Below, in pieces: positions 3,901-59,967 of a stretch of 64,000 bases of DNA. The stretch lies in assembly GCF_910592395.1 (NCBI RefSeq), contig NC_088313.1, positions 14,400,437 to 14,464,436 of the forward strand. The letters are read 5' to 3'. The DNA comes from Lineus longissimus. Lineage: Eukaryota; Nemertea; Pilidiophora; Heteronemertea; Lineidae. Numbering within the stretch: position 1 is the stretch's first letter; each line of letters opens with the position of its first letter. The notes below the pieces were generated by a model. That model was given only the letters and a program-made list of their open reading frames with translations. It did no database searches and had not been told where the DNA came from. Both the position numbers and the translations under genes were made by a program.

Positions 3901-6697
3901 CAGCTACCTTAAACTGATGGAACATTTGTTCCACGTCACATGTGATTGCTACGGTCTCTTGGCGGAAGCGGCAAAGGACGCCTAGTAGGGAGTTGGTCAG
4001 GTCTGGTCCCTGCAGCAGATGTTTATTTATCGAGTGTCCGGCACATTCTGCTTGGCAATCGAAGACGACTCTGACTTTGTCGGGTTTCTTGGCATTCACG
4101 ACTCCAAAATGTGGCACGTACCAATGCTGTGAGGAGTGCTCTTTTGATGACTGAGCATCCCATGGTACAAGCTCGGCATCACCCTTATCGATCATCCTTT
4201 GCATGAACGCTACATACTTATCCCTGTAAGCCGGTTCCCGGTTGAGCTTCAACTTCAGCTGATTTAGTCTCCTCAGCGCCTTTCCCCGACTCTCTGGTAG
4301 CTCTGGTCGGTTTCCCTTAAAAGGCAGTGGCATCTCGTAGTGACCATCGGCACGCTGCACTATGCCAGCATCAAGTATGCCCATGAACTTTTTGTCTTCA
4401 TAAGACTGTGGTCCGCAACTGTCCTTGACATCAGCGTCCTTGAAATCAGACTCGAGGATGGTGATGATTTCTTTAATACGGTTTGGCATGACTAGTGTTC
4501 TTTGTTCTTGGCAATGTTCAGCGCTGGTTTTGTCACCATACGTAACAATTCTATGGCTCACACCTATGTTGTCACCCGTCATGTCGATTTGATTCGGATC
4601 TACGGTTCCTACTATACCCCATCCCAAATCCGTTCTCTGGGCATAGGGTGCATTAGCGGAGAGGGCTATAACTTCTCTTGGGGCCAAGGCCTGGGGGCAG
4701 TTGTACCCGATCAGCAGCGCGACGTTGCAATCCTGGAGTGGTGGCAATTCAGATGCAATCCTAGTCAGGTGGGGCCACACATTCGCAATCTCAGGGGTGG
4801 GAATGTGTTCCCGGTTCATCGGCATCACATCACGACTGAAGGATGGAGGCAGATTTATTTTCAAGTCACTGTTCATCCCTCTGACGACCAATCCTTTGAC
4901 TTTAACAGTTTCTATGATTTCGTTTTCTCTAGACATGGTCGACAAACTCAGATGTGACTTTGTCCCAACCAAGCCAAGCGTTTTCCGAGTGTTCTCTAAT
5001 ACAAACGTGGTATCGGATTGAGTATCCAACATGGCGTACGATAGTATCTCATACTCAGGCCGGTCCTCATGAGACACCCAGACCGGTACTATCATGGAGC
5101 TCTTACTGACCGATGCACTGTCACAACCGCCAACATGACTGATTCCGCTATGTTTGACGCTGGCCCTTTCTGTCTTATCTTCCTTCAATCCACTGTCTTT
5201 TACCGTACTGTTGACCTGGATAAAGCGTGCCTCATCATGTAGTGCAGTAGGGTGAGTTCTCTCACACTTTTTACATTTGGAGCGTCTCTTGCAGTCCTTA
5301 GCTTGGTGTGCCTTTTTCATACAGGAAAAACAAAGACGGTTTGCCTTGACAAATTGCTTACGGTCCTCCAGTGTCTTCGCCAAGAACACCGGACAATCAT
5401 CAAGCATATGGACCTCTTCACAGCAAACGCATTTCTTCTTATCAACAAAGGAACCTGTCATAGTGGATTTTCGATGGCTGTTCATGGGTTCAGTTGTCTC
5501 AGTAGCAAGGGAAGACATCTTTTCATGGCTTCTCTTTTCATGCCCATGCGACGACCCTGTTGTAGGCTTGTCCCCTGTCCTGGCGTTACCAGTGGCACCA
5601 GAGTGAAGAGACTGTAGCGACGTGATAGGATCACAAGAAATGTCGGCTTCACGAGACATAAAATCAGCGAACACACGAAAGGGTGGAAACTGTTCAGTTA
5701 CGAGCTTATAGTCTGACACTTTTCTCCCCCATCTCGATACTAACCAATCTGGTAACTTGGCCAGTATTTTACGGTTTTCACGACAATCGTCCAAAATGCT
5801 GAGATAACCAATGGAACTCATTGCTGTATTACATTGCTGTAGGAAATCACTGAGTTTCCTCAATCCCGTCCCATCACGATTTCCAACCTTGGGCCATGAC
5901 TCCAACTTCTTACGGAACGCATCAGCAACGACAAATGGCTCACCAAACCGTTTTTCCAAAACCTCCTTTGCTCTAATGTATGCCTCCTCAGTATCCATGT
6001 ACAGGTAACCTTCAATGGCCTCTTTGGCGGGGCCCGACAAATATCTCCGTAGGTAGTGTATCTGTTCCCTCTTAGGTATCCCTCGACCTTCTATTAGTGT
6101 ATGAAATGCCGCTTTCCATGCTGGGTACATGAGGGGATCACCGCTGAAGACTGTGGGCTCGGGTGGTGGAAGCCGTCCGATCGTTATCTGGCCTGTAAAC
6201 ATCTTAATGAGTTCCCCAAACTGATCTTCCGAAAAGGGCGGGTTCATTGTAGGCGGTACCTGGGGAAACGGTATCCCAGGTGGGTGGCTGTTCTCAACTG
6301 TTGGTTTGAAGACAGGTGCTTGTGGGTCCAAGTTCTGCTGTGCCGATACCTCCGGTGGGGGTCTGCTAGTACTAGTTGTGTCAGCATCCTCATCCGTGGG
6401 AGTTGTCTTGGCGGTGGTACTGGCCACTGCTACGTTAGCAAGGAGCTGCAAGTTGGTTATTAACGTTTCATCTGAGTCTACTGGTTGTTCCGCGAGTCTC
6501 CGAACTTCCTTACGCTTGATTTCCCGTTCTAGTCTGAGCTTTTCAAGTTCGAAAGTCATTTCTCTCATCTGTGTTTCTATTTGGTTGCTTCTCACCATGT
6601 GCTCCAATTCTATCTGCAACTCCACTATCTCGAATCTGGCCTCGCTCTCCTCTCTACTTAGCTTCGACATCTCATCAGCGTGGCTGTCTCCATCCAT
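995..6697 (-). CDS. BEL/Pao gag-pol polyprotein, 1900 aa, intact
   Basis: A single open frame with no internal stop. The gag part has an N-terminal coiled-coil-like Glu/Arg-rich stretch (residues about 10-70), a capsid-like region (about 150-350) and Cys/His zinc knuckles (about 423-477, several CxxC and CxxxxxxxC pairs). The aspartic protease has the active site DTQSD with Asp near 558. Reverse transcriptase (about 855-1020) has FHQF and the YVDD box at 1000-1003. RNase H follows with acidic residues near 1188, 1232, 1262 and 1308. Integrase shows an HHCC zinc site (HEAQGH near 1520, CVGC near 1556) and a D,D,E triad near 1591, 1653 and 1705. The tail (about 1780-1880) looks like DUF5641. 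No envelope-like gene is present. It makes the proteins for retrotransposition of this element and has no host role that I can see. Confidence 0.93.
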   Translation of the reverse strand: MDGDSHADEMSKLSREESEARFEIVELQIELEHMVRSNQIETQMREMTFELEKLRLEREIKRKEVRRLAEQPVDSDETLITNLQLLANVAVASTTAKTTPTDEDADTTSTSRPPPEVSAQQNLDPQAPVFKPTVENSHPPGIPFPQVPPTMNPPFSEDQFGELIKMFTGQITIGRLPPPEPTVFSGDPLMYPAWKAAFHTLIEGRGIPKREQIHYLRRYLSGPAKEAIEGYLYMDTEEAYIRAKEVLEKRFGEPFVVADAFRKKLESWPKVGNRDGTGLRKLSDFLQQCNTAMSSIGYLSILDDCRENRKILAKLPDWLVSRWGRKVSDYKLVTEQFPPFRVFADFMSREADISCDPITSLQSLHSGATGNARTGDKPTTGSSHGHEKRSHEKMSSLATETTEPMNSHRKSTMTGSFVDKKKCVCCEEVHMLDDCPVFLAKTLEDRKQFVKANRLCFSCMKKAHQAKDCKRRSKCKKCERTHPTALHDEARFIQVNSTVKDSGLKEDKTERASVKHSGISHVGGCDSASVSKSSMIVPVWVSHEDRPEYEILSYAMLDTQSDTTFVLENTRKTLGLVGTKSHLSLSTMSRENEIIETVKVKGLVVRGMNSDLKINLPPSFSRDVMPMNREHIPTPEIANVWPHLTRIASELPPLQDCNVALLIGYNCPQALAPREVIALSANAPYAQRTDLGWGIVGTVDPNQIDMTGDNIGVSHRIVTYGDKTSAEHCQEQRTLVMPNRIKEIITILESDFKDADVKDSCGPQSYEDKKFMGILDAGIVQRADGHYEMPLPFKGNRPELPESRGKALRRLNQLKLKLNREPAYRDKYVAFMQRMIDKGDAELVPWDAQSSKEHSSQHWYVPHFGVVNAKKPDKVRVVFDCQAECAGHSINKHLLQGPDLTNSLLGVLCRFRQETVAITCDVEQMFHQFKVAEEDRDYLRFLWWSDGKLDEQPKEYRMTVHLFGGTSSPSCCNFGFKRLADDYEAEYGHQAADFIRDNFYVDDGLTSLPSDGEVIHLLENTQKLCKEGGLHLHKINSNSDAVIQSVAEKDRAAKNSTRLLTESNNVTTHEPTLDRALGIYWCVTSDTFQFKIVLRDRPNTRRGILSTIGTIYDPMGLIGPVLLIGRQILQELCALDLDWDSQPPEDILLRWERWRDDLFTLDQLKIPRCLKPADFGEVTSIGLHHFSDASQLAYGQCSYVRMVNQEGRVHCSLVLGKARVAPLRPITIPRLELTAAVLSANMSAVVRRELTYKIDSETFWTDSTVVLGYIQNDAKRFHVYVANRIQQIRDKSKSNQWRHVKGENNPADEGSRGVTATRFVQPEMTKWLTGPAFLWETKLPDASDIESALSPKDPEVKSVALVTKVTKTEPGLIPDRLTRFSSWSKAKTSIATCLQYKRRLRDKANGAQLKPKTLHTSDLKEAETEIVKRIQALAFGEEVETLKQMRRTKDNVTTKKNAIDRKPVLKDNSRLRKLDPYLDGDAVLRVGGRIRRADFPNEVKHPAVLPRDNHVTTLVIRHFHEAQGHTGRGMTVNAIRLAGFWILGCRRAVASYIHTCVGCRKLRRALQGQKMADLPTDRLEPAPPFTHCGVDVFGPWTIKEGRKEIKRWGVLYTCLGMRAIHVETLNSMSTDSFINSLRRLIAVRGAVQLIRCDNGTNFVGAKNELEQAWSEMDFDQIRKYLLKEECDLDFRMNVPRASHHGGVWERQIRSVRNVLAGMLLHEGTQLDDESLRTLLYEVMAIVNGRPLTTDNLYGPTSLQPLVPNQLLTMKSRVIIPPPGTFPREDLLLKKRWRRVQHLANRFWCQWRKEYVNNLQERPKWNQDVRNLKVGDIVIMKDDELPRNLWRLCRVAAVVVDEDGHVRKVRLAVGDRALDKNGKRIQATTYFERPVQKVVLICEGD

Positions 6698-7485
6698 CTC
6701 GATTCTTGATCATAGAGATTTCACTGTGGATGCGGGCAGCGAAACTATCAACAAACAACTCATAGGACTCGACGGGATGATTTACTTTAATACGAATTTC
6801 TGTGTCGTCCGTGAAATCTACAAAGATACAAAAATGAAGCTAACATAGGCAATTTGCCTCAGATAAAACAAGGACAAGGAGGTGCTGCCAACTGGTGTTT
6901 TGAATCGGAACTACAAGGCAGACCGATGACAGGTCACGTGACCCCGCAAAAGGGTGCGATACAGGGTGTCCCAAAATAACTCAGCTGTAAATACTCTATT
7001 AAACAGTAATTTGGGCTAATAGAACGTTCGAAAGGAACACCAATACAATGATAATACATCAAGATTCACCTAGGCAACGATAGTTAAAACATACAGCTCA
7101 CGCATAGCGAGATTCCGAAATGACATTGCCGAGAAAAGGGGCCCGGGAAATCACATCCGAGAAGTCCAAAGACGGCAGGAACAAAGTCTTTATAAAAGGG
7201 GCCTGATTATGAATTATACAATGGCAATGCTCCCTGAATATGGTCAACACAACGCATGAAGCATTTATGCCTTAATTTAGTAATTACCTCTATGAGTGCC
7301 TGAACTATTGTACTTTGCATAGATGTGTTTCGTTGTCCACAACAATACTACAAAAATATCAAAATGACGAATATTCGAAGGTTAAGCGCATGCGCGAAGG
7401 CAGCGCGGGAAAACGACCCAGTTTCCGTATCCGCAGTTCAGCGTCACTTTTGAAGATTACAAAACTGCGCTAAGGCGCACTTACA
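6698..7485 (-). repeat. 5' LTR (certain for 7136-7485) plus leader/PBS region of the BEL/Pao element
   Basis: Positions 7136-7485 repeat the left LTR exactly. The inner LTR edge cannot be placed, because the left copy is cut at the window start, so the true LTR may extend to somewhere between 6700 and 7135. The primer-binding site should lie in the same strip; I could not assign a tRNA primer with confidence. A mariner-like string CAGGGTGTCCCAAAATAA occurs at about 6962-6979. Confidence 0.75.
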
Positions 7486-7756: not shown

Positions 7757-7960
7757 TTCTGTATGTAACTGTGACTGTAGACTATTGCTGCATCCCATTC
7801 TGTCCCAAATTGTGACTTTGGACTGTTTGCAGATATTAACCCCATATCAAGGGAAATTAACCAACAAATGCGAAAAAAGTGTTGAAGTGGCATATACCTC
7901 ATGATAAAGTGCCAGAATCAGCTAAAATGAGTGAATGACAAGTTACTGGTCCAATTTCAG

Positions 7961-10900
7961 ATTATCAGCGCCTTGTTCAATTACTTCGTGGCGAAAAGAT
8001 TAAGAAGTTTGATACTTATATGAAGACTCTGAAGATCTTGCAGCCGGAGATAGGGAAGCGCCTGGTGATAGACATGCCATTGTTGACATCATTACTTGCA
8101 AAGGATGTCATTACTGAAGAAGAGAAGGAGCAGATTTGGAGCCAAGTCGAGCACGGGAACAGTCGAAAAGGTATAGGTATAGCCCTCTCGCCAGATGCCC
8201 CTAACCCCTAAGATTGATCAGTAAACATTTAGCCTGCTTTTAAAAGGATTTTGACTAGGCTTTTCAAACAGCACCCAATTTCTACAGGTGTTTTCTGCTT
8301 GGTCTCCTTTAAGGTCTTGACATATTGATAAGATGCCTTCCAAGGAGAATTGAAGACTGGCCAGACAAGTTTATAGAAGCCCTCACGGAAACAGGGAATG
8401 AAGAAGTAATGGCGACATTGTATGGCATGGATGAAACTGATGATTATGCTTTCGGTATGTGATCGGTGATATTTTATTTCTTGTCTGTCTTGCTAACAAA
8501 AAGGAGGCGGTGTACTGAAGGTATCTGCCGATGTTCAAAGGGCGCGTGTTGAATTGCGGAACTGCCGTACTTGTTTGCTACCCAGAGCAAGTCGCTTCAC
8601 TTCACTTGCATTGTTAAGAGTGTCAGCCTTGGTTAAGAGGTCTTGAGTTCAACTGCCGGCTCCCTGGTCTAGTTCCTCCAAGATGTAACCCAGTGCAGTT
8701 GGTGTTTATAATTGCCCCACAAACGAACAATATAAATCACTATTACCTGCAATTAAATCACGTGAGATAATACTCGCTAGTTTGCGGTGGTCATCACTGG
8801 TAACTGCGACAAACATCGGTCATAAACTAAATTAGTGTTAACCCCTGACCAGGGGGTACAGTGTTTTTATTGACAGCTAGGGCGTCAAAAGATGTACATG
8901 TTTTGACAAGGCCTCCACTTGTTTTCAGATAAGGAAAGAATCCGTAAAAAAAACGAGGCGCTGAAGACAAGCGCTATGCCGGACTACTGTCGTTCTAGAG
9001 GCGATGGTAAGCATCAATTTAACCCTTTATCATTGCAAGTAATTAAGGTTGCATTTAATAGTGGTGGGGCAGCAGGGGGGCAGTAACACCCTGCTGCCCC
9101 CTCCCCCCAAATGTGGCCAAAAATGTGTCTTACAGCAGTAAGGCGAAAAGTGCAGGGCAGCCTACCATTGCACATTTGGGGGAAATTTCAGCATTGTTAG
9201 GTGGTTTACACTTTACACTTGGGGCCAGTAGAATAAAGTAAGATTCTTTGGACGGAAAGTAAAGGGAGTACATACCTAGACACCCGTATATAGAGAAGAC
9301 CCCATCCCAAATTGGAATCCAAACTTTGGGGTATATCCTCCACACACCCATTTCAAACTTTCCCAAATCCTGCTAACATAGAAGTCTCTGTCCCCAAAAT
9401 CCCAGCAGTTTATGATCTAACCCAGCGTCCCATACATACTAAAAGGATGCCCTCTATACTGTAATTTCAGGAACGGACCATGATAGCAGCTTTTCAGAAA
9501 ATGAGAGTTCCGACAGCCTGCTCGATGAGGACCATCAAACATGCGTAAAATCGTTTAACATCAACAACCTGAGTCAAGGCCATTCCTTGGAGAAGCGAGA
9601 GGACAGCACCTCACATAGCCAGAGCCCTGGAGGGTTGGGCTCGGACCCCGGGAGTTCCCAGTCATCGTTTAATGTAAACTTCGATTCATTCCCAGAGGAA
9701 TCAGCAGCAGCAATGGCCATGGCCATGAGATCAGGTACAAATGCTAGCTTGGGCATAGGATGTGTTGGTTTTCATTCAAAACCGTCTTCCAGAAGGACCG
9801 CAACAAACAGGATAACTGAAAAATCATTCTACTGCTATCGTGAATAAGCAATGCACTTGAACAGGGTGTAGCCTAGGTCTGCCTGAAACTTGCAAGGAAG
9901 GTCCGAAACTGCCTCGCAACATTTGCAAAAATCGTTGAGATCAGCATTTATAGTGGCTGAGAAAGGTGTCTATCACATGCCCAAGTAGTCCCTTTAACAT
10001 CCCTGCTCCCCCCCTCACCTCGTTATTGCTAATAACCGTATACACACTGAGGCTTAAGGTCCGCCTAAATGGACCTGATATCAGGACAGACCTGGGGCAA
10101 GTTATCTGATCTTTATCATTGAAGAACAAGAGGCCCAAGGGCCTGGCACTCAACTGAAACACATGGAGATTTTGCTCAGTAACACCAACTGGAAGTATCA
10201 ATTAGAAGAATTCTACTTTTTATCAAAACCTACCTGCATGCAGACCTCTTCATATTTATATCAAGACTGTATCTGCTCGTATAAAGTGACAGCTAATTCT
10301 TAGTTAATCATGCCTTTAGCCCCCTGGTGAGCAGAATGGAGGTCAAACCATACTAAATTTTCTATCAGGGGCATTTCCTGTGCATTTCTTCCTATCTGCC
10401 AGATTAGAAGTACCTAGGCCTCACGGTTTCAAATGTGGCCAAATGTGTCCATGATGGAACAATGGATGCATGGTCACCACTCGAACAGCTAGTAGACTAG
10501 AAAGTCAGTTGAGGGAAAAACCAAACTTAGAAGACATCCGCACAGTGGGCAAAAAGGACAGTGACACTTACTTTTGAAAACAAATAACAAATAACAACCT
10601 CAAGAAAACACTTATTCCATATATTTCAGCACAATAATCTCAATTTTATCACTTTCTTCTCGGGTTCCCCAGCAGACGACAGCAGTGGAAAAAGTAAGAT
10701 GTACGTAAAAGACTTGCAGTTAGATATCAATATTCGACAACTCGGTAAGCATTATAGACCACTCCCATGCGCAGGACGAGAACTCTTTTTATCAATTGTG
10801 TCGTTCTGTCCCTGCTTGCATTGGCTGCCATTGCTTCCCAATGGCCACAAATAGGCCATTTTATTATTAGAAGACTTTTCAGGCGTGTAGTGACATAAGT

Positions 10901-27984: not shown

Positions 27985-37720
<9,736 letters not shown>

Positions 37721-39645: not shown

Positions 39646-42600
39646 ATGCCTGTACCTGAGCACGCCAACATGAGCCAATCACCGCCAGCGACCGGACACG
39701 ACCACCCGAACCTGATACGCAAGTTAAGCGCGTCGAAGAAACCACTTAAAGAGAAAGTGGTCCTGTTTTATGATGCGTTGTTTAAGGTGGGTACAAACAC
39801 ACAAAAATATGCTCAAATTAGAGTGGGGCCTCCCTTAGTAGACACCCTCTCTAAGGACACATCATTTGGTCCAAAGTTGGTCATTTCCATATTGATTTTG
39901 ACCTTTGTAATCAAGACACCGCTCGATTTAGGACAGCATTTGTCAGTTTCGCCACCAGTGACCTATATGTGAAAACACAAAAACTCCTAAATATATTTTC
40001 AGGGAGAGGATCCGTCAGTTGGTAACCCAAACTTCTGGGACGAGTTCTTCCTCCTCCGTGTTAATGCCCAGTTCATCGAGAAAGAGTTCGATGGCTTGGA
40101 TGGCGACCAGCTTATGAACTTAAAGGTATGTGTACGTTCTCCAAGCAGACTGAAGGATCTTCTCATAAGTGCTACTCTCTAACACTAACACTTTCAGCGC
40201 CATCCGACGTAGATCTGCCTAACTTTTTTTGCCCAAAATACCCCCGGCAGCCGCTCATTAGGCTTCAGCGTTAAAAACAACACTTACAGTGGGGTTGGGT
40301 CCTCTACCTTCAAAAAAATCGAAAAAACGGTACATTCACTAATACTCTCAATTTCAGAAATTTCAGTTTTTGTGTTGGTGGTCAACTTTCGTTTCTGTCG
40401 AATTTCAGGAAATTATCAACACGTTGTTCTACAAATGTGTGAAAACGCTACAATCCGAGAACCACATTCGAACGGCTAACGCCATTCAGACACTGATGGG
40501 CCTCATCCGCGGCATGTTTAAGAAATCATTGCCGACAGGAAACTACGGGTTTGACGTCATCAATATATTGGTGGGATTCGACTGTGCTGAGGCGCGAATG
40601 CAGGTGAGATCAAGTTGAACAATTCAATTATCGTCTATGACGTCACATTTCGGTTGTGTTCGACTTTTGTAATTATAATAGTGCATCTCTTCTCTAAAGT
40701 TTAACCAATTAGCAAAGAAATAAAAAAACGGGCAATATTTCTTTATACACGGTACTAGGGTCCCTAGTATGGGTAATATACAAATTAGAAAGTAAGCATG
40801 GAATTTAGCCTTCAAAAGTTCAAGGTTTTAAATTAGTATTAATTTATTAACGTGACCATCGACGAGTTATGCATGTTAAAAAGTTTAATTATTCAATTTC
40901 AGAACTTAGTGGAGTGTCTACATAACTTTCTGACTGGTGAGTACCCAGCCATCCTGAAAAACCTCTCGCTGAAGTTGCTCCTATCCCTTGTGACGGCCAC
41001 GGACAATGTCAGTCAGAATACCATGTTGGAGTACATCATGATAAACAGTGTATTTGAAGCTATTGTTCAGGTGAGTGACGATTATGTTTTGCTACGATTA
41101 GCTGACCAATCCTGATGCTTGGTTTTGTGGTTAAGGTGTCCATCTCGTTGAGTCGTGAACCTAAGGTTGAGTATTCCTGTTGCTAGCTCTTCCTGTAGTT
41201 TGAAGCCCCCGTCATCTCGGTGATATTGACAACTGTGTTGTGATCTGACGTCTTGTGTGACGTTACAGCGTGAAAGTCATATGTATATATCATGGGGGAA
41301 AGGATTTTGATACGTGGGGCCGTTGTTCCCCTTTTTGTCAGAGAGCAACAATTCTTTAGTGCGTCTCTTCCGAGCAAATAAATAGTTTAATGGTTTAATC
41401 GTTGTCTTCACATGTCCGGAAAATGCATATTTAGCACTATAAATTGTGCTCAACCCCTTTCCCAAATTTCTGGATCTGCCACTGATGTGTCATTATACAT
41501 GATAAACTTTTTACTTTTCAGTTACTCGCGAGCCCAATCGGGAGACAGACGCATGGACATGATGCCGTCTTATTGCTCACCATTCTAGTGCAGTATAGGA
41601 AATACGAGGTAGGACATGCGATTTCTACCACTGTACCACTGTATTAGAACTGTTTTAGAACCCTATAAACTACTAGGTGTCAAAATAAACATGATACTTT
41701 TTGCTCAGACCGATATTTCATAAAATTGACATATCTTAGCCATGTTATGCTTGAATTGATGATGATCTATAAAATGGCAATTTTGGTGCAATTTAATTTC
41801 AAAAGTGTATCGTGTTTATTTTGACATCCAGTACTTCTTCTTCTGCATTCACTCTACACTTGTGCTATTCTCCATGGAATATTTGATCCTCCAAGGTGGA
41901 ATGATCGTTTTTGTGTGCCATGGTTTGGCACCAATTGGGTTCATAATCATAGTGACGCCATCTTTAGTCAGAAGTAGAGTCCACACAAGCTGTTTATGTT
42001 TCTCACTTGGTAGGGTTTTTTGCTTGGCCTGGTAAAGACACCGGATGATAATAATAAACTGGGCGCTACTGCATGTGAGCCAGCAGTGTTGACCACAAGG
42101 CTATGATGCTCCTGACACCTAGTACATTAGAATTAATGATAGCACAGACAAATTGGATATCAACTCTAACGCTGTCTATTTCTGTTTCAGTCTGCCAACC
42201 CGTATATAGTCAAGTTATCAATATTAGACGACGAATTAGCTTTAAATGTAAGTATCAATATTCATCATTGGAGAAAGTCATATCATCTTCAGGCTCCGAA
42301 GCGGGCACAGCTGGGTGCTGCGGTAGGATTGACTGTTTAAAGGAGTGGGCGGCCTTTTACTTTTTTGTGCAATTTGTTGATGGAAACTACTTATGTTGAA
42401 TAGGATGTGACTGGGCTGCCGACAGCTGGGTAATATTGCCCTTAATAATGCCAGTGGTCCTTTAAGGAGTAAACGCAAAAAGAGATATTCGTCATTTTAC
42501 AAACCAGTGCTTTTTATTGCAGTGAAAGTTATGTCAGTTCCCACACTACTCTTTCTTTCACAAGAATACATGGAATAACAACTCCCTCTTTTAAAAAATG

Positions 42601-45600
42601 AAATGTTGCATTCTTTTATTGCTCTGCACAGCATTAGGTGCGAAGGTCTTCTGCCTCTTGAACAGAATATCAGACACACCTGAAGGTCTTTGGTGTGTCT
42701 CACCTATACAATACTAGTCAATGATAGACTAAAACCAGTTTTCACCCAGGCAGTCAGCATAACCGATTAGTTAAAGGGTGTAGCTCATGGTTGAATACCA
42801 TTGAAGGGGTTGACTACCTGGAACAGTTTACAAACTTTTAATCTCAGGTCTTTCAAGAGCAATGCACAATCTCTGGGTTCTCCCCAAGATCAAACCAGCA
42901 GTGTGTACCTCTAGGCTATGTGGCATCTCATGATTTCTGAGAGAGGGTGCGTTACAGCCCTGCGAACAAGTACACTTTTAGACTAGAGTACTCTTACTAG
43001 TCTTAGTACTCTTACCAGTCTTAGTACTCTTTTTGACCAACGTTTATGAAAATAGTACTCCTTGACTGCTGTATTCTGCAAAGGAAAATGCATTAGGAGT
43101 GCACATTTGATGTTGGTAAAAATCACTAGAATACGCCTAAATTTGGAAAATTTAGCTGAAAATAACATACTCCCAAGTCCAGTTGAAATACTATTTGCTA
43201 ATTTTTTGGGTTGGCAGGTTTTGCTGTTGGCCAGGTGATTATTCTCCATCCCAGTGCTTTAACTCTGGCATCTCTTCTGGTCGACAGATCTCGATGTATC
43301 TGTATACGGATGCTGGTTCACGCTGATAAATGATGACTTCATCTACATCTCCTGCCGCATCCAATTCATGTTGACAGTCGCGCAAGTACAGCGCATGCAC
43401 AAACCTCTTCATATAACTTGCGACCTTGGCACACTTTGGAAGGTCGAGCTTGTGTCCGGCCAACGCACTCACCTTTGGCATGAAGTACAACGGGATGAAT
43501 CCCTGCAACAGACTCTCCTCAACCTCGTCAAACACTTGGCACACCATTTGGCCGAGACTCAGGTTGGATCCTAGGAAGTATTCGACATTTTTGAAGAAGA
43601 TCATCTTGAGCATGTAGCTGGTGATGTACTTGCTAACGTTCTTTGGCCATGAGCCCTTGTCTGTTATCATGATCCGACAGACGTCTGGGTTCCGTAGACA
43701 TTTCGCCAGGACATAGACGTCCTTCACTCGACTTTCTAGATGCTGCATGTGCAAAGTTTCAAGGTGAGGAAAGGATATTTTCCACAGGGACTGGAGCTGT
43801 TCGTGGGTGTACTGCTTGGCCAACTCGCCGCTTGCATGGGGTGGCTTGGGAACGAGGTAGTAGCCACACTGTCGCAGTTCCTCGTGACTCAGGAGCCACG
43901 TACGGTTGATTCCGCCTTCTAGCCACTTGCCCTCAACATGAAGACTTGGCACAGCATCCACCGAAATCGTGACGTGACAAGTTTCTTCAAACTGTGCCTG
44001 CCATTTCATCTCAATGGGTGACGTTGCCTTCCTGTTCGAGTCTTTGATTAGCTCACTGGCGGGCTGTCTAAGCGTCAAGGAACTTCCGTCAAAGTAGCAT
44101 CTTGAATGAGGAGCAAAGTGAAATTTTCTGAAAAAATCAAGGTGAAAGTCTTTGCTCCCCTCCTTGAGTCTGTGCTGTGTTTCGTCAGAGTAGTAAACAT
44201 AGTCATGCCCGGCTCCTTTTATTTTGTGTTGTTCTGTGCTTGTAAGTGTGGCTATCTCAATGAGGAAATCCATTTCATCTGGTAAGCCAACCTTCGCGCC
44301 CTCTCCCGCACTTCCACAGTTCACTATCTTGGAGAATAAATTGGTCTCTGTGCCAATCTGCATCATCGCCAAGCGAACTTGTTTGTCGATTTCAGTACTC
44401 TTTGGATGAGGTATGCTCCGTACGTTTCCTATACCTGGGGTGTTGAGCAAGGCCTCCATACTTAGGTGGAGCAGGATCGGTATGAAATCATTGCCGACCT
44501 CGACGATCACTTTCTTGGCAGTTCTCGTCTCGTGCAGTGTGTGATAGTCGACATATGGTGCGAGTGGCAGCAATTCAAATGGTACTTCACCAGATGAATT
44601 GAGTTCATCGACATCACTCCCGTCGATAATCAACAACCGGACTATCTCCAGTTCTCCACGGTGGCAAGCTGCATGGAGATTGGAGAAGGTGTGCGTCAAG
44701 GTTAAAGTTTTTGCAGCGTACAGTGGCTTATGAGTAACATTATGCCCACATTCTCTATTCATACCAAGCGTGAGCAGCATGTAAAATATATCTGAACTAA
44801 CATTTAGACTGATCGCGTCTGTTAGCAGTGTATATGATAGAAATGGCTCTGTGGGAATGATGACCCCAAGTCTGTCAGCAATTTGTCTTGCATTCTCATT
44901 AAAAAGATGTTGTATGTTGCCGTACAGTATTCGAGCGGGGAGAGGGAAGCCTGCCTTAAGCAGTGACAACAGTGCTTCGCTGTTGTTCATATGTATCGCC
45001 GTGCTAACGGCATTCAGTCTCAAATAATCTGATCCCAGTCGTGGATTCGCCCCGCACTTAAGCAAACACTCAACCATCTTGGTGTCGTCGAGTTGTAGCG
45101 CCACCATTAAAGCTTCCGTACCAACGATTTGTTCCACGTTTGGTTTCGCACCATGTTGGATCAGATATTCTAGAATATCTGGTGTATCTAAAGTGCACGC
45201 GCATTTCACCGGCTCCCCTATCCCCTTGATCATGACTGCACTCATGCTTGCCCCAAGACGGCATAGGGTCTGCACCATCACCGTGTCTGAACGCTCTACA
45301 GCTAGAAAGAGTGGTCTTACCAATTCCAACTCTGAATTCACATCGGCCCAAAATTCCACCAAAATTTTAACCATACTTTCATCGTGCTGCTTTGATTTGA
45401 GGAGCTTTTGCAGGAGGAATTGGCGGAGGATATTCTCACCTCTGCTTGCTGTCATATTCAGATTTGCACCCAAGTTGACCAATAACGCAGCCATGTCTGC
45501 ATCACCTCGAACCACTGTGTCATGTATGATAAGGAATCTGTCAAATGTAGTGTTTATGTCGGCCCCAATTGTGAGCAACCATGCCAGAGATGAGAGCAAT

Positions 45601-48600
45601 GTGTTGAAGTCATGTCGTTGTATGTACGAGTAGCTGTTACGGAGCAAGTGTGTCAAGGCTGTCACACCGAGCACGACAATTTCATCATCAGCTCTGAAGC
45701 CAAGTTCAACAAGTCCCTTTACCATTTCTCGATTACTGTTTCTAGCTGCAAGAATCATCGTACCAATCCTTTCGTCATATTTGGCGTTCACGTCTGCCCC
45801 ACATTGCCCCAAGTGGGACAGCATCGCCATTTCGTTTTCTATCAGCGCTGTCATTATTGGTGGCTGATTTGTAACCCACTTGTATCTGACGTCAACCCCA
45901 TGCCTGACCAGACAGTTGAGTATGTCAGGTTTGTCCAACAGAACTGCTTCATGTATTGCATGAGATATGGTAAAGGGTTTGTTGAAATCAGCTCCAAGCT
46001 GTGCTAAACATGTAAAAATACCAAAATCATGAAACTTATCTACTGCAGCATGGTTAACTAATGTCATGTTATAAATAGTGCAAGTGTTCGTATCTGCCCC
46101 GTTTTCAAGCAGAGTTTCTACAATATCAGTGTTTCTTGATTGTATTGCAGCATGCACTGGTGGAACAGTAATATAGCAAGCATTAACGTCTGCTCCTGAG
46201 AGAATTAAATGTTTCATCACGTCTTTCTGTCCCTGTTCCATTGCCAAGAACAGAGCTGTACGGGCAGTGATTAATAACTCCTCATTCCCGAAAGTTTGTT
46301 CTCTGTATAATCCAAGCTTCGCCAGCGCCTTCACTGCAGGGACGCTTTCCACTCGAATCGCCTCATGTATGGATGTCACGTTTAATTTATACTTTGCGTT
46401 TACGTCTGCTCCTAATTTTAACAAACAGTCGACCAGCTGTATTTTTTCCTTCTCGACTATATTCTTCATTACCAGCGATAAGGTTTCATTACCTTCAAGA
46501 AGCCTGGCCCGGCAATCATCGGAGAGTAGTGGAAAATTGTCTCGCAGGGCAGTCTGCATCATGAATCCAGTTGTGTGGCTCGACAGGGCATGGTGTAATG
46601 GTGTCCAATGGGAACGATCACTTGCATTAATGTCCGCCCCTAAACCTACTAAATGTTCAATCATTGATTTCTTGTTGTAGTGTGCGGCATAGTGTAGGAC
46701 AGTTCTCCTTCTGCTGTCCCGGAAGTTTACACTGATTTTCTCGACTAACCTTGTGACTTCTGATACGTCGTGCTTCACCACAACGGCGTCCCACAATTCC
46801 TCAAAGATCTTGGCCATTCTGTAACCTACACACCCTGATGAATCAGTTCCCCAGCTTGCCGAGAATAAAGCTGGCCTGACAACCTGCTGAGCAGGGCAAC
46901 CTGGGAAAGTTTTTCCAAAACTTTAGAAAATCTATGTTGTCGGAGTCTTTTGTTGACAAATCACATTTCCTTGCGGTAGTCAATTAACAAATGGACTGAA
47001 TATCCTGAGTTATGATGTCATGACGGCACTTTTCCAGGGGCGAAGGAGTGTCCACTGGGCGTATAAGTCTAGCGTCAACACAACCCATCACATACATGTA
47101 CCGTAGTATAATCCAAGTCTCCATTGAAATTGATAGATTTCAATAACTTGGTCTATTCACTTGTGCTAACACAGTTGCAGAAGTGTTTCAAATCAACTGT
47201 CAGGACCAAAACTGCATAATCCTTGAAAGTGTTAAATTGTGGGTAATATTTGAAAGAAATGCCTATCCTCAGAGACTCTTTGGGTAGCTGACATGACTGG
47301 TAAAATAACCACAGCTACCTTCCCATATCATGTTGTTTGGATTTAACGCCCCCAAGATAAAAATCTATGTCACAGTGAAGATAGACCACTTGACATAGGA
47401 AGTTGGCCAACTGACAGAATTTACCGAGCAGTGTTGCCTGAGAAATTGTGTGCATCACAAGAAAAACAGCCAGAATGTGGTTATTCCTAAATGTACTAAA
47501 ATGAACTCAGAACATGCATAGGGTGAAGTCAGGTTGACTTTGACAAACGGGCGCAGAAGTGGGTTTTTAGCTGTCCATCCTTTCAATAGCACGGCATGTT
47601 ATACAGGGTGGTCCAGAAAAAACGCAACCTGATACTTCCACTACCAGGGGGTTAAAACCATTGATACTAGATGAGGAATCTTTCTAGAAGAAGAATGATA
47701 TAAAGATCGACCGATTCTGTTTAGTAGTTTTTGTTGTAGAGACTCAAGGTTGGAGTCCCTTAGTGACTGCTGCTCTGACCAAATTCAACCGTCTGTATAT
47801 GAAGAAAAAAGTTTCGCCACCTATGCTATTAGGATGCAACTAACTACCAACTATCCCGGAGTGCGTTTTGCATGTCTAGAGAGGGTGCGACCAAGTGCTG
47901 GTGAATATGTTAGATGGGCATGATGTGTCATGCACGCCACCCACACGATATGGGACCGTGCACATGACGAGCTATGTACGTCACCCGCAGCGTAGGAGTT
48001 TAGAATGTTTTGCTAACAATTCTGCCGCCATTTTTTCAGGGATTTGCTCAAGTGGTTTCCGGTGCTCTGACCGAATTCAATCGTCTCTACCACATCAAGA
48101 ACTCGGAACCGCAGGGCGGGTTCTTCTCAGCGATCACAAGCATGGTGAGTTGACACACCCTCTTTTCTCAAATGTTTCACAGTATATCACGCTCTTCCTA
48201 CACACTAACATTTCACCTAATTCACCGCCCAGCCTCGTCCCAATTCATTGTGTGCCTCCGCCAATTCCTGACGCAAGGTTGGATTGTAACTACGTTTTCA
48301 TTGCCCTGACGAACTAAAAAAATTCGAACATCATATAGAGGGCAAAAAATAACATTAAGGCCATAGGAATGATTAATCCTGTTTACCGTCCGAGTGATTT
48401 AAAAAGATGATGAGGCTTTTTTTCATTTTTAGCTCACCTCTTAGCAGAGGTGAGCTTATCCCATACCGTGGCGTCCGTCGTCCGTCGTCGTCGTCGTCGT
48501 CGTCGTCGGCGTCGTCGTCGTCGTCGGCGTCGTCGTCCGTCGTCCGTTAGCAGGGCACGTTTCGTAACTGTTAGAGCTATTGAGTTGAAACTTGGTACAC

Positions 48601-54600: not shown

Positions 54601-57600
54601 ACCTCTGGCGTGTGCTCTATTAGGTGAGTTAGAGTAGATGTGTGACCATCTTCCTAGGTTGATTTTCACCAGATAACGATATAGTCAGAGTTGCCCAAGG
54701 TCCTTGAAGCTGTCTCATACATGTGTGTGAAGTTTAGTCAACTAATGATATTGAATTTGTTAACTGAACTGAGCAAAATATTCCTGAAAATTCCCATAGC
54801 TTTTTGCCCAGTGTGACCTCATTCTTTCTTATTGCAGATTTAATGGTAGAATTTGTGATGAGCCACATGATGAAAAATTTGCCAATGGAATTGTATATGT
54901 AAGTATTCTAGTATGAGGGGCATCGGGCAGTAGGACCTCTCTCCTAAGGACACCTTTGGGACTGACAAGGAACTAAAATTCCTTGCCGTTCACAGTCTTT
55001 CAAATGAGACCTAAAACTAAGTGAGGTTCCTTGTATCTGGTGTCTATGCCAGGGCAAGCCAAAGACCCCACCTTGTGGGAGACATGAGTAGCTTGCGTGG
55101 ACTGTACCTCTGGCTTAAGTCAGAGTCGCTAGGCATATAAACTCAATTGGCGCCTAACTGTAGTGGCACGTAAACCAATCATCCCACCTTGGAGGAGAAT
55201 ACTTTCTGGAGACTAACGCCTTCAAGTGCAGAGCTGAAGAAGACTACCATTCCGTCCCAGGGGGGTATGAAAATAATTTGTATCTTTTTCCGTCCTGCAG
55301 GCAGGTGCTAGGAGTCGCCCATCGCGTGTTGTGTTACCAGAAGCGGTGTCGAGTTCGGCTGCAGTACGGTTGGAAGGAGCTCTGGACTGTCCTCATCAAC
55401 CTCCTAAAGTTCCTCATGTCCAATGAGTCGCATATTATGAAGAAACATAATCTATTCCCTCTAGCGATACAGGTAAGAAAAACATTAATGCGATTGTAGA
55501 AAAGGATTGTGGTCATCAGAAAAACATAAATGGGGTTGAGAAAAATGTAAATGGGTTATAAGAATAATGTAAATGGAGTTATAAGAATAATGTAAATGGG
55601 TTATTAGAAAAATGTAAATGGGGTTATTAGAAAAATGTAAATGGCGTTATAAGAAAAATGTTAATGGGGTTATAAGAAAAATGTAAATGGGGTTATAAGA
55701 AAAATGTCAATGGGGTTATAAGAAAAATGTAAATGGGGTTATAAGAAAAATGTAAATGGGGTTATAAGAAAAATGTAAATGGGGTTGGAGAAAGACTTGT
55801 AAAAATGAGGTTGTAAAAAACATAAATGCAGTTGTAAGCAAAATATAAAAGTAGTTGTAAGAAAGACATAAATGTGGTTGTAAGAAAAATGTAAATGTGG
55901 TCATGAGAAAAACATAAATGCCAATTGATAATCATTTATACTTAGTGACACAAAAAATTCAATGAACTTTTGATTTTGAGTAAATCCCAAGACACTGATC
56001 TGATACATACCATATTCATGTATTCATTGTTTCTGTCGTCTACATGTATTCACAATCCTGTCCTTTTCAGGTTGTGAATATTTTCAATTTGTTCATCACG
56101 TACGGCGACACGTTCCTGCCCAGTCCAAGCAGTTACGACGAACTCTACTACGAAATCATACGAATGCATCAAGTATTCGATAACCTGTACTCGATGGGTG
56201 AGTTTCCACATAAGCCGCCCACATACGAGCCCGTACACCGCATACTCCTTGCCAGCAGTATTCTTAATTTTCAACAATTTCTATCGTTTACCATAGTCCC
56301 TGTAAGTTTGTTGTTGGTTACATGTACACGTATGAAAGCGACTTGGCAGCACTGCACTCAACTCAATGAAATCCTCGTCCCTAAGATCGGGTAATGCTTG
56401 CTATTTTACAAAGAAACTTTTCCAAAACCAAGTTGAGATCCAGGCCGCCCGGCAAAAACGGAGCGTAGTGGGCCAGGGGTAGGGTACACTGCCAAAACCC
56501 TGCGGTAGCAAAAAGGTTATTGGAGAGGTTCTTCGGAATGTTATAATATGTTATAATAGGTTATTGGAGAGGTTCTTCAGAATGTTATAATATGTTATAA
56601 TATGTTAATAGAGAGGTTCTTCAGAATGTTATAATATGTTATAATAGGTTATTGAATAGGTTCTTCAGAATGTTATAATATGTTATAATATGTTGATAGA
56701 GAGGTTCTTCGGAATGTTATAATATGTTATAATAGGTTATTGGAGAGGTTCTTCAGAATGTTATAATATGTTATAATATGTTAATAGAGAGGTTCTTCAG
56801 AATGTTATAATATGTTATAATAGGTTATTGAATAGGTTCTTCAGAATGTTATAATATGTTATAATATGTTGATAGAGAGGTTCTTTGGAATGTTATAATA
56901 TGTTATATTGTGATATTCAAAATTTCGTTTCTCTCTGTACTCTTCTAGCTTTGCGCTACACCACGATTGACGGAGAATGGAAGGACTCGGCGGCCAAGCT
57001 AACCAATTACTTAGGAAATGTTAGGTAAGGCAAGATTAAAAGAGGGTTTTAGGTTCATTATTCTGTACTTGTTTGAATAGTCTGTGGGATATTTGATAAA
57101 TTGTATAATTGCCCAACTGAATATTGGCCGAGTTGCAGAATTCCTGACAAAGTCCTAAATACCCTTGAAGCATTAGACCGGGATTCTGTAATCATACCCC
57201 AATTTTGTTCCCAATTTTGGGGAATTATTCCATAATCTACAATTGGCTGCAAATGGTTAAAACAAAGGAAAGTTCAGAAACTTGAGGATGTCAACTGGTG
57301 AGGTTGAAGCAAACATCTAAGGTGAAATCAGTAGGATGTATCGCAAATTGAATTTAAATCAATCATTATGGGCCCCAGACCACACAGTCTGGGGACCATA
57401 TTGATATTGCTGGAATTCTGCATTCTATCTGTTACCAAACTTTAGTGTGAGTGTTCTCTGAAACAGCTGAACAAACCAAAAATCTTTCACCCCAAACCCA
57501 CCAAGCATACCCCCATCCAAGGGACGTCACTAAAGACTTTTCAAAATTTCGGCTCATTTTGATGTTATTGACGCTTTTATGCTGAGATTCGTCTGATCGT

Positions 57601-59967
57601 CTTCTCCCAACATGCCGAAGTCGCGATTCAATCTGACATGCGCTGTGACATGCGCAGAGGCGAGACGCTGATACATTAGCATAAGCTCCGCCCCGTCATA
57701 ATGACATCATTATTCTCAGGAGTTGGTCGAGCGATGGGACGATGGAGGTATTATAAAGAAACCCAATTCGATTCATGGACTATCGCAAAACGATTTTTCA
57801 AAACTCAGAATATTTCGATGCTTTAGATGCATTTTTATGACTCCAGCTCCTCCCTCTCTGGGAGCTGGAGTTAGTATTGTTTTCGCTCAGGTTTCTCGTC
57901 CAATCACGTGACCAACACTCGATAATGCACTCTTTTCGTCCACGTTTTAGGCCAATCTTCGGCATGAACATGAAATCTAATAAGCGCAGTACTTAAATCA
58001 GATGTTTCTCTCGCCTTGAAAACATTCCTGGGTAAAATCCATTGAGATTAGCCGAGTTAATCTACTTTTTCCGTGATTAAAATCTCTGCCGCTGAATTCT
58101 ATAAATAGAAACTATTAACATCGCGGCAGTGTGGTTCCCATTGTGCGCCCTCCCACTTCACACCATGTCTGCAAGTTTTACGGAGAGGGAGGGCGTGCGG
58201 TAAGAAGAATGGCCAAAATGACGTCACGTTTTCCTGGCAATGCCTCTTGCCGGACCAGTCAAGCATTGGGAAAGCATCTTTAATTCTCAATGCTATTTCA
58301 ATTTCATCTCAAACATGTCTTTTTACAGACCCACCCCTTACACAGACAATGGGTAACATCAAGTCTTCTGTTTTCAAAGTGTTGGAGAAAGTGTTTTAGG
58401 CCTACCTCAGTAGCTGAACTGATAAAACACTGTCCAAGATCAGCAAAGCAGCAACTGAGAATGGTGTCAACAATGTTTTTAACAGAAACAAGCCTCAAAC
58501 ACTTTCCCCAAGACTTTCAAACCCAAGACTTTACCTCACCCAGTGAGTGATGCACTCTGAACTATACTTACCAAGAACTGTCTCCACCCTCATTCTCTGG
58601 CTAGGATAATGTAATCCATACAACAGTTTACTATCGCTAGGATAACCCAATGCTCCCTCCATCCAATACTCGGGGGCCCATTTAATTTGCTGTTAAGCAG
58701 ATTTCTCAATCTAGTTCATTCAGAGATCCGATGAAGCTTTTAGGACATCTCAAGGAAAATTCACTTCAGATGAAATTGCCTCCATGATAAGATAAGAATG
58801 ATTCCAGTGCACAAGTGCCAAAAATATTTTCAGCTTTATATTTTCTCCCCACAGGGCAATCATCAACCACTTCACCCCCAAGGTGAACTCTTATTCCACC
58901 CAGCACCAGCTCTCCTCACTCATGGAGGAACAAGTTGTAAACAGTACTAAATAGACTAAACATGATATTTTCTCCCCACAGGGCAATCATCAACCACTTC
59001 ACCCCCAAGGTGGACTCTTACTCCACCCAGCACCAGCTCTCCTCACCCATGGAGGAACAAGTTGTAAACAGTACTAAATAGACTAAACATGATGTTTTCT
59101 CCCCACAGGGCAATCATCAACCACTTCACCCCCAAGGTGGACTCTTATTCCTCCCAGCACCAGCTCTCCTCACTCACTGAGGAACAAGTTCTTGAGGTCG
59201 TACGCGGCAACTATGATACACTCACGCTAAAACTGCAGGAGAACCTAGATCAGTTTGAGCGTTATTCAGAAAAACCAAAGGAAACTGCCTTCTTTACTCA
59301 GTTAGTAAGTATGCTCTTGTTGTCTTGTGCTTGACCCAATCCAGGGTAAATTTGCCTCTTGAATCCCTGGACTTTCCTTCAAAAGAACCATCCCAGATAA
59401 CATTTACCACTATCTCAGAGTTGGCGCCAAGGCGTCGGTGCGTATCACTGCTGCTTTTCACACAACGCCGTATCTTCGTCTTACTTACTTCTGAAATTTG
59501 AATCAAAATGGTATTTCGCAGTTTCCACTTGTTGGTTGATGCGGTGCTGTGTTTAGAAAATGGTCCTCAGGCCTCTGAAATACATTTATAAAACCCCTGA
59601 AAATGTGCTTTTGGACTTGTACCAGACGAAGTGTCGGATAGTTTTATAGTTTGTACTTGACGTCCAGGATTTAGTGCCTGACATGTAATGCTTTGTAATG
59701 AATTGTTAATTTGGTGCCTGACATATGCATCTAGGTTTGGTGCCAGACAATACTCTACATTTGCATGGGCATCTGAGAAGCTTATGCATTTATAGATAGA
59801 CTCAATCAACAAATCATTGTTCTCACTTGGATATTCAGGAACTTATTTTTGCTTTGTTTTATTTTGATATCTAGGTTCGCTCAATCATCTCTGATGTGAG
59901 AAAAACGACAGACGTCACCAGCGCAGAGCAGCAGAGCATTCTGAGAGAATTTGGGACGATATCCTGA
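39646..59967 (+). CDS. ARMH3: ARMH3 (C10orf76) homologue, armadillo-like helical protein, 703 aa
   Basis: Nineteen coding exons: 39646-39786, 40003-40125, 40409-40603, 40903-41070, 41522-41608, 42191-42247, 48040-48144, 52514-52560, 53088-53163, 53434-53626, 54132-54190, 54372-54437, 54554-54623, 54838-54898, 55301-55472, 56071-56197, 56949-57024, 59109-59304 and 59875-59967. They total 2112 bases in consistent phase (human protein 689 aa). Diagnostic stretches are [81 protein letters not shown] and [20 protein letters not shown], with the DUF1741-type C-terminus ending FGTIS. In vertebrates it is a Golgi-associated partner of PI4KB that supports GBF1/Arf1 activity. The ATG chosen lies 45 bp into exon 39601-39786; GTG upstream is not used. 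Intron 6 hosts an antisense gene, and exon 18 has a triplicated 3' splice site region. Confidence 0.95.
39820..39955. repeat. pogo-like MITE remnant in ARMH3 intron 1
   Basis: GTGGGGCCTCCCTTAGTAGA and CATTTGGTCCAAAGTTGG are worn forms of the family's left end and middle. The right end is missing. Confidence 0.6.
41828..42113 (-). repeat. tRNA-derived SINE copy in ARMH3 intron 5
   Basis: Tail CTTCTTCTTC at 41829, shared blocks GCCATGGTTTGGCACCAATT and AAGACACCGGATGATAATAA, head CAGCAGTGTTGACCACAAGG CTATGATGCTCC at 42081-42112, ending about 80 bp before the next exon. Confidence 0.65.
42248..43238 (-). other. 3' flank and likely 3' UTR of the antisense ankyrin-Mab-21 gene
   Basis: A minus-strand AATAAA (TTTATT at 42513-42518) lies 720 bp past the stop codon and could be its polyadenylation site. 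A short direct repeat of TACTCTTACTAGTCTTAG-type sequence lies at 42985-43030. A SINE head fragment lies near 42895-42930. No other gene is seen. Confidence 0.5.
43239..46817 (-). CDS. Ankyrin-repeat protein with C-terminal Mab-21/cGAS-like nucleotidyltransferase domain, 1192 aa
   Basis: One uninterrupted frame of 1193 codons inside ARMH3 intron 6, opposite strand. Residues about 36-750 are degenerate ankyrin repeats ([72 protein letters not shown]). Residues about 780-1150 form a Mab-21 fold: [20 protein letters not shown] gives the GS motif (835-836) and E848/D850; [11 protein letters not shown] gives D954, the third acid of the cGAS-type site. [28 protein letters not shown] and LYFMPK follow as in Mab-21 C-terminal helices. 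The cGAS zinc-binding H-CC-C thumb is not visible. The predicted activity is synthesis of a cyclic or linear nucleotide signal on ligand binding, as in cGAS-like receptors; the ankyrin array may sense or scaffold. No coding intron; a 5' UTR intron is possible (GTTACAG just before ATGG). All reading-frame features argue for a live gene. Confidence 0.88.
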   Translation of the reverse strand: MAKIFEELWDAVVVKHDVSEVTRLVEKISVNFRDSRRRTVLHYAAHYNKKSMIEHLVGLGADINASDRSHWTPLHHALSSHTTGFMMQTALRDNFPLLSDDCRARLLEGNETLSLVMKNIVEKEKIQLVDCLLKLGADVNAKYKLNVTSIHEAIRVESVPAVKALAKLGLYREQTFGNEELLITARTALFLAMEQGQKDVMKHLILSGADVNACYITVPPVHAAIQSRNTDIVETLLENGADTNTCTIYNMTLVNHAAVDKFHDFGIFTCLAQLGADFNKPFTISHAIHEAVLLDKPDILNCLVRHGVDVRYKWVTNQPPIMTALIENEMAMLSHLGQCGADVNAKYDERIGTMILAARNSNREMVKGLVELGFRADDEIVVLGVTALTHLLRNSYSYIQRHDFNTLLSSLAWLLTIGADINTTFDRFLIIHDTVVRGDADMAALLVNLGANLNMTASRGENILRQFLLQKLLKSKQHDESMVKILVEFWADVNSELELVRPLFLAVERSDTVMVQTLCRLGASMSAVMIKGIGEPVKCACTLDTPDILEYLIQHGAKPNVEQIVGTEALMVALQLDDTKMVECLLKCGANPRLGSDYLRLNAVSTAIHMNNSEALLSLLKAGFPLPARILYGNIQHLFNENARQIADRLGVIIPTEPFLSYTLLTDAISLNVSSDIFYMLLTLGMNRECGHNVTHKPLYAAKTLTLTHTFSNLHAACHRGELEIVRLLIIDGSDVDELNSSGEVPFELLPLAPYVDYHTLHETRTAKKVIVEVGNDFIPILLHLSMEALLNTPGIGNVRSIPHPKSTEIDKQVRLAMMQIGTETNLFSKIVNCGSAGEGAKVGLPDEMDFLIEIATLTSTEQHKIKGAGHDYVYYSDETQHRLKEGSKDFHLDFFRKFHFAPHSRCYFDGSSLTLRQPASELIKDSNRKATSPIEMKWQAQFEETCHVTISVDAVPSLHVEGKWLEGGINRTWLLSHEELRQCGYYLVPKPPHASGELAKQYTHEQLQSLWKISFPHLETLHMQHLESRVKDVYVLAKCLRNPDVCRIMITDKGSWPKNVSKYITSYMLKMIFFKNVEYFLGSNLSLGQMVCQVFDEVEESLLQGFIPLYFMPKVSALAGHKLDLPKCAKVASYMKRFVHALYLRDCQHELDAAGDVDEVIIYQREPASVYRYIEICRPEEMPELKHWDGE
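46818..48039. other. Rest of ARMH3 intron 6, between the antisense gene and exon 7
   Basis: It should contain the promoter of the antisense gene. ACAGGGTGGTCCAGAAAAAA at about 47603-47622 resembles a mariner terminal repeat, without a partner that I could find. 47763-47804 resembles part of ARMH3 exon 7 (see findings). Confidence 0.45.
48431..49575. repeat. Dispersed repeat with AGGTGAGCT hairpin, (GTC)n tract and ~285-bp internal tandem units
   Basis: It starts AGCTCACCTC TTAGCA GAGGTGAGCT, a perfect 10-bp stem (48431-48456), then CCCATACCGTGGCGTCCG and a (GTC/GTCG)n tract at 48476-48545. Three diverged units follow, each with GGCACGTTTC, TTGGTACACATGTACCC-like, CCACCAGGGGGC and AAGGTCACAGAGGTCAAATG. 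It ends CATGAGGTGAGCACAATGGC near 49560. I recognise this pattern from lophotrochozoan genomes; the transposon class is not clear to me. Confidence 0.7.
49576..51111. other. ARMH3 intron 7, plain part
   Basis: No gene or clear repeat is supported. A GC-rich piece at about 50010-50350 contains GATTTATCCGCCGCGTGGCG and two GTGACGTCA-like sites. The open frames here are short and unlike any family I know. Confidence 0.4.
51112..51412 (-). repeat. tRNA-derived SINE copy in ARMH3 intron 7
   Basis: Tail TTCTTCTTCTTCTTC at 51115-51130, then CAGCACTTGGTGGTGTTATT, TTGCCACTATGGTTACG, TACAAGGAACCTCGGTTTTT and GTGAAGAGCCAAGAATTTT, the shared SINE blocks. The head is degraded. Confidence 0.65.
52169..52416. 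repeat. pogo-like MITE, diverged copy in ARMH3 intron 7
   Basis: TAGAACCTCTCTATTAAGGA at the left and CCACTAAGAGGGCTTCCACT at the right. The centre has extra AGAGAGTGTCCTTAATA units. Confidence 0.65.
52583..52797. repeat. Palindrome built of tandem CCAAGAC/GTCTTGG hexamer-like units
   Basis: GGTGTCTACAAAACCAAGAC starts a run of CCCAAGA and CTACAAAACCAAGAC units. From 52709 the exact complement follows (CTTGGGTCTTGGGTCTTGG ... TTTTGTAGACACCCGCATTG). Even the flanks GCATTGTTATGGGTGTC and GACACCCGCATTGTTATCG match, so one arm is an inverted copy. Located 23 bp after the splice donor of exon 52514-52560. Confidence 0.85.
52982..53070. repeat. pogo-like MITE remnant just before ARMH3 exon 9
   Basis: CACCGGGACCAAATGCGGTG, GAGGGTGTCCTTGATAATGG and CACTTAGGGAGGTTCCGCTG are worn right-half sequences of the family. 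They end 18 bp before the acceptor at 53087. Confidence 0.6.
54960..55250 (+). repeat. tRNA-derived SINE copy, opposite orientation, ARMH3 intron 14
   Basis: It contains the complements of the shared blocks (GAGGTTCCTTGTATCTGGTG, TAACTGTAGTGGCACGTAAA, CCTTCAAGTGCAGAGCTG) and ends GAAGAAGA at about 55240, the (GAA)n tail, so it reads on the + strand. Confidence 0.7.
55486..55918. repeat. Minisatellite, ~22-bp units, ARMH3 intron 15
   Basis: About 19 units of GGGGTTATAAGAAAAATGTA AAT with small changes. It begins only some 14 bp after the exon 15 donor. Confidence 0.88.
56515..56915. repeat. Minisatellite, ~45-50-bp units with higher-order pattern, ARMH3 intron 16
   Basis: Units of GAGGTTCTTCAGAATGTTAT AATATGTTATAATAGGTTATTG alternate between GGTTATTGGAGAG, GTTAATAGAGAG, GGTTATTGAATAG and GTTGATAGAGAG endings in a repeated four-unit order, so the array grew by duplication of blocks. 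It ends about 30 bp before exon 17. Confidence 0.88.
57025..58839. other. ARMH3 intron 17, unique sequence
   Basis: No gene supported. A short perfect hairpin CTCCAGCTCC / GGGAGCTGGAG lies at 57841-57870. The open frames at 58099-58550 are short and lack a family match. Confidence 0.45.
58840..59192 (+). repeat. 127-bp tandem triplication over the ARMH3 exon 18 acceptor
   Basis: The unit ATATTTTCTCCCCACAG|GGCAATCATC ... GAGGAACAAGTT is present three times, with exon starts at 58855, 58982 and 59109. The spacing is exactly 127 bp. The first two are full units ending GTTGTAAACAGTACTAAATAG; the third continues into the true exon (GTTCTTGAGGTCGTACGC). Copies differ by only a few bases. All three have the same good polypyrimidine tract and AG. 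Splicing to either upstream acceptor reads in frame into EEQVVNSTK and a stop. Confidence 0.93.

Follow-up and report, generated by a model that had tools for sequence, protein, structure and literature searches.

In a 64,000-nucleotide stretch of the genome of the nemertean Lineus longissimus (RefSeq assembly GCF_910592395.1, contig NC_088313.1, positions 14,400,437 to 14,464,436 of the forward strand; hereafter the window), a single open reading frame (ORF) joins a long ankyrin array to a Mab-21-type domain in which the positions of three acids align with the metal-binding acids of human cGAS. The reading that we favour is that of a gene for a cGAS-like receptor (cGLR) whose N-terminal part is the ankyrin array; together with the mechanism that we propose for it, and taken as a whole, this reading is tentative and sits a little below an even chance. 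The ORF is a single exon of 1192 codons running from ATG to stop (43239-46817, minus strand), exactly as called in the original prediction, which a model had made from the letters of the window. We rejected a chance origin of a frame of this length on the open-frame evidence. The gene is intronless, and no second copy of the ORF was found within the window by tblastn at E up to 1. An in-frame stop lies upstream at 46925 and the protein appears to begin with an ankyrin cap helix pair; the N-terminus therefore seems complete.

Residues 1-759 match Pfam Ank_2 in 10 stretches (E=1.4e-46), a tandem array that lies in the same frame as the Mab-21 domain and has the length of more than 700 residues originally predicted. 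A repeat model derived from this protein's own repeats, and hence not independent, gave 17 matches, all within residues 36-738. Of these, 15 were strong, at 22.6-36.8 bits, and the other 2, at -3.1 and 1.9 bits, were weak; the widest match-free stretch was residues 631-708. Tandem Repeats Finder reported nothing inside 43239-46817, and the only direct repeats touching the ORF were 18-20 bases long. On these grounds recent tandem amplification of the array at the DNA level was rejected, and the ankyrin repeats are probably old and diverged.

Judged by profile and pairwise comparison, the C-terminal part of the protein (residues 760-1192) is a Mab-21/cGAS-type nucleotidyltransferase domain. PF03281 matched it at E=1.6e-5 and 25.5 bits, just over the cut-off of 24.1, over profile positions 121-195 of 197. 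The Pfam Mab-21 search that had been proposed as a check thus succeeded on the domain alone and fell short on the whole protein, where both families scored under the cut-off (PF03281 21.8 bits, PF20266 19.2 bits). PF03281 is followed by PF20266, the expected order along the C-terminal part. Smith-Waterman alignment with human cGAS (the comparison sequence is identical to 4lew_B) gave a score of 89, compared with a mean of 36.4, a standard deviation of 5.05 and a maximum of 60 in 1000 shuffles, and BLASTP, run as a single-pair comparison, gave E=1e-5. Of the 323 aligned positions, 84 are identical; with the PF03281 match of the domain alone and the sub-cut-off PF20266 match, the alignment extends the homology across the nucleotidyltransferase core and the C-terminal helix bundle. 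With an E limit of 10, a sequence search of the PDB with the domain alone returned 4 chains. The top one, in the C-terminal half, was cGAS-like receptor 1 (8gjw), a borderline match (E=0.02) and the sole Mab-21-type chain among them; the other 3 were nucleosome assembly protein 1 and transcription factor COE1 (E 0.44-1.7). NCBIfam gave 2 chance-level matches only (E 0.09 and 0.11), PADLOC gave none, and scans of viral, bacterial and archaeal genome contigs yielded no confirmed relatives.

The residues named in the original prediction were all located: GS at 835-836, E848 and D850 within PDEMDF (846-851), and D954 within TISVDAV (950-956). GS and the three acids fall on their cGAS counterparts (Table 1), which bears out the claim of a Mab-21/cGAS-type domain retaining all three acids. 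Furthermore, S1067-Y1068 is aligned with S435-Y436 of cGAS, and K1013 stands at R376. As a possible third acid we also considered IEM at 935-937, whose gap of 83 residues fits the spacing in the cGLR motif of Li et al. (2023 preprint, PMC9980059, section 5; here and throughout, statements from this source refer to part of its text), h[QT]GS X8-20 [DE]h[DE]h X50-90 h[DE]h. It was rejected: it does not fall on cGAS D319, whereas D954 belongs to an ISVD stretch that cGAS also has. When residues 780-1192 were shuffled 5000 times, 172 of the shuffles contained the motif in a looser form (GS, [DE]h[DE]h, h[DE]h, gap of 50-110). The motif alone was therefore rejected as proof of an active site, and the identity of the domain rests on the profile and pairwise evidence.

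The domain carries no zinc thumb: the columns aligned with H390, C396, C397 and C404, which we take to be the thumb of human cGAS, hold H1026, K1032, D1033 and C1040, in agreement with the earlier remark that no thumb was visible. Columns K173, R176, K384 and K407, presumably DNA contacts of cGAS, hold S, I, T and N. Among 54 aligned lysines and arginines of cGAS, 21 are lysine or arginine in the domain and 6 are aspartate or glutamate; for the 9 that precede GS, a weakly aligned stretch, the number kept is 2. The isoelectric point (pI) is 6.31 for residues 760-1192 (charge -5.8) and 6.77 for residues 800-1120 (charge -1.0), as compared to 9.07 for residues 157-522 of human cGAS (charge +12.4). 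Double-stranded (ds) DNA- and dsRNA-sensing cGLRs have a pI above 8.5, a value that the domain does not reach (the boundaries used for pI in that source may differ), and for acidic cGLRs, with pI down to 5.0, a non-nucleic-acid ligand is considered probable (PMC9980059, section 6). This suggests that the ligand may not be a nucleic acid, and it lends weight to the earlier guess that it may not be DNA.

In the mechanism that we favour, the ankyrin array would most likely bind a protein partner (a pathogen protein, a guarded host protein or a scaffold), and this binding would bring the C-terminal nucleotidyltransferase into clusters or alter its shape. E848, D850 and D954 would hold the metal ions with which the nucleotidyltransferase joins two nucleoside triphosphates to form a cyclic dinucleotide, which would be read by STING or another receptor. 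The protein is probably an active enzyme; that its product is a cyclic dinucleotide is slightly favoured, and that it is triggered through the ankyrin array, and not by a nucleic acid, falls just short of an even call. We consider doubtful the more specific idea of a protein-sensing cGLR, in which the array would serve as the ligand-recognition module, replacing a charge-depleted nucleic-acid surface, and the signal would report an effector from a pathogen or a host protein that has been disturbed. The established activating ligands of animal cGLRs are dsDNA and dsRNA, and for some acidic or auto-active cGLRs the ligand is probably not a nucleic acid (PMC9980059, sections 6 and 10). Catalytic acids combined with a domain of low pI and a protein-binding array of roughly 15 repeats make this gene a concrete candidate for a protein-switched cGLR, which, if true, would widen the sensing range of cyclic-dinucleotide immunity.

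Several points weigh against a cGLR switched through its ankyrin array. With D954 as the third acid the strict cGLR motif is broken, since a Cys stands where the motif calls for Q/T ahead of GS, and the gap between the second and third acids is 101 residues instead of 50-90 (PMC9980059); human cGAS, scored against the same motif with our own hydrophobic set, fails at the leading hydrophobic position and passes the remainder. The "intact active site" of the original prediction therefore holds for GS and the three acids on their cGAS counterparts, and not for the residue before GS or the spacing. The PF20266 match to residues 760-1192 (E=2.7e-4, 21.5 bits) lies 2.6 bits below its cut-off of 24.1, the cGAS alignment is weak in the stretch before GS, and a single-sequence AlphaFold2 model was too poor for a fold search (mean predicted local distance difference test score, 32). 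A pI taken over the whole domain is a rough indicator, and the charge evidence weakens nucleic-acid sensing without making the array the sensor, since acidic cGLRs are proposed to bind ligand at the enzyme domain's own groove (PMC9980059). Finally, a two-row profile of the domain and cGAS was run on the PDB and compared with cGAS alone, a comparison that is weak evidence because the methods differ (hmmsearch and phmmer). The two-row profile raised MB21D2 from 26.9 to 32.5 bits and lowered both the cGAS-like receptor 1 chain 8gjy (86.2 to 75.4 bits) and 7lt2 (29.3 to 27.8 bits), which leaves the subgroup unsettled. In favour of a cGLR, in the same comparison 8gjw rose from 61.8 to 64.9 bits and Mab21L1 fell from 58.2 to 38.7 bits. 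As far as they go, these shifts argue against a Mab21L1-type protein and are compatible with a cGLR or an MB21D2-type protein.

The Cys before GS, the longer spacing and the MB21D2 rise also speak for a non-catalytic or developmental Mab-21-like protein, in which a binding fold would be combined with a scaffold array and the acids would reflect recent descent or nucleotide binding only. We regard this as unlikely: at the above level of identity with cGAS, the protein retains GS, the S-Y pair and every one of the three acids, and the two-row profile shifts away from Mab21L1. A different proposal accepts the cGLR but has dsRNA or dsDNA activate the nucleotidyltransferase, with the ankyrin array only localising or scaffolding it. 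In its favour, dsDNA activates 2 and dsRNA 7 of the 15 active cGLRs in one panel (PMC9980059, section 6), and arginines stand at cGAS K411 (R1048) and K394 (R1030). The missing zinc thumb and the incomplete retention of the aligned cGAS lysines and arginines, both before GS and overall, with some positions acidic here, point the other way, and the pI statement in section 6 of that preprint makes nucleic-acid sensing less likely still; we judge it improbable.

It is also conceivable that the ORF is a recently transposed or retroposed gene copy, little expressed and without present use, as it is intronless and lies antisense in an intron of a many-exon gene, ARMH3. Its 1192 codons are however stop-free and its catalytic residues are kept, and no A-tail was seen between the ORF stop and the end of the intron, where no run of A exceeds 6 bases and two reach that length. 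We hold this explanation to be very unlikely.

Table 1. Features of the ankyrin-nucleotidyltransferase gene and its surroundings, in window coordinates
Feature	Position	Strand	Basis
ORF of 1192 aa, ankyrin array N-terminal and Mab-21/cGAS-like nucleotidyltransferase C-terminal	43239..46817	-	open frame, Pfam
Residues 1-759, ankyrin repeats	44541..46817	-	Ank_2 E=1.4e-46, self-derived repeat model
Residues 760-1192, Mab-21 nucleotidyltransferase domain, C-terminal helical domain and tail	43239..44540	-	PF03281, PF20266, cGAS shuffle test
G835-S836, GS motif, on cGAS G212-S213; preceded by C834 where cGAS has T211	44310..44315	-	alignment
E848 and D850, predicted first two metal-binding acids, on cGAS E225 and D227	44268..44276	-	alignment
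D954, predicted third metal-binding acid, on cGAS D319	43956..43958	-	alignment; ISVD identical in both (BLASTP)
Two AATAAA, possible poly(A) signals 3' of the stop	42513..42620 (first bases 42620, 42518)	-	motif only
ARMH3 intron enclosing the whole ORF antisense	42248..48039	+	GTAAGT donor, TTTTTTCAG acceptor

The host gene was mapped by tblastn with a human ARMH3 sequence as the query. This gave 28 matches in the window: 20 lie in order on the plus strand between 39712 and 59964 (E 4e-25 to 0.031), two of them repeating one exon piece, and the remaining 8 are scattered and at chance level (E 4.8 to 9.8). Pfam ARMH3_C provides an independent mark at 55164-55499, 55999-56394 and 59068-59334. 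A many-exon ARMH3 gene thus occupies 39712-59964 on the plus strand. Of its two exons flanking the ORF, one ends at 42247 before GTAAGT and the next starts at 48040 after TTTTTTCAG, edges that place the ORF antisense within one ARMH3 intron. Further along the same gene, a 127-base unit repeated 2.8 times (58838-59190) duplicates part of an ARMH3 exon, and residues 594-622 of the query match there three times.

Elsewhere in the window, positions 1-7435 hold a BEL/Pao long terminal repeat retroelement. Its 300-base direct repeats (1-300 and 7136-7435) are identical and its 1900-codon frame (995-6697) is open, which suggests a recent insertion. A tRNA-Ala call on the plus strand at 6254-6346 overlaps the retroelement frame on the other strand, lacks Rfam support at the gathering score and is probably spurious. 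An open frame at 7939-8211 on the plus strand gave a weak CARD-like match (E=0.011, 16.1 bits, cut-off 23.9), and two open frames on the minus strand, at 28385-28684 and 29061-29393, gave Sel1-repeat matches below the cut-off of 30.7 bits (18.1 and 30.4 bits).

Ankyrin-fused cGLRs are already on record (Li et al. 2023 preprint, PMC9980059), and Stylophora pistillata has some of them. Like the protein described here, these fusions carry ankyrin repeats on the same chain as a cGLR nucleotidyltransferase, a likeness of description and not of residues; the architecture is not novel, and the gene is a further example of a known fusion type. The text of that preprint, figures and tables apart, does not state that any of the active enzymes carries ankyrin repeats. 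No further report of ankyrin-fused cGLRs appeared, by title or abstract start, among the literature matches listed, and the available parts of PMC10732462 and PMC10855445 make no mention of ankyrin. The acidic cGLRs Pd-cGLR of Pocillopora damicornis (pI 5.0) and Sp-cGLR2 (PMC9980059, sections 6 and 10) resemble our protein, again by description rather than sequence, in that charge speaks against nucleic-acid sensing; unlike it, they are not described as ankyrin fusions in that text. The best solved-structure match by sequence is cGAS-like receptor 1 (8gjw), but with E=0.02, and its solved chain of 355 residues is too short for an ankyrin array of this kind. The protein shares with human cGAS (PDB 4lew and others) the catalytic GS, E, D and D and the S-Y pair in the alignment, and differs from it in the absent zinc thumb, the Cys at T211, a pI of 6.3 instead of 9.1 and the ankyrin array at its N-terminus; the N-terminus of cGAS is disordered. 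Finally, Mab21 genes are reportedly nested in introns of Lrba/Nbea (Tsang et al. 2009), and the present gene is likewise a member of the Mab-21 family nested in another gene, here with ARMH3 as the host and with an ankyrin array in the protein.

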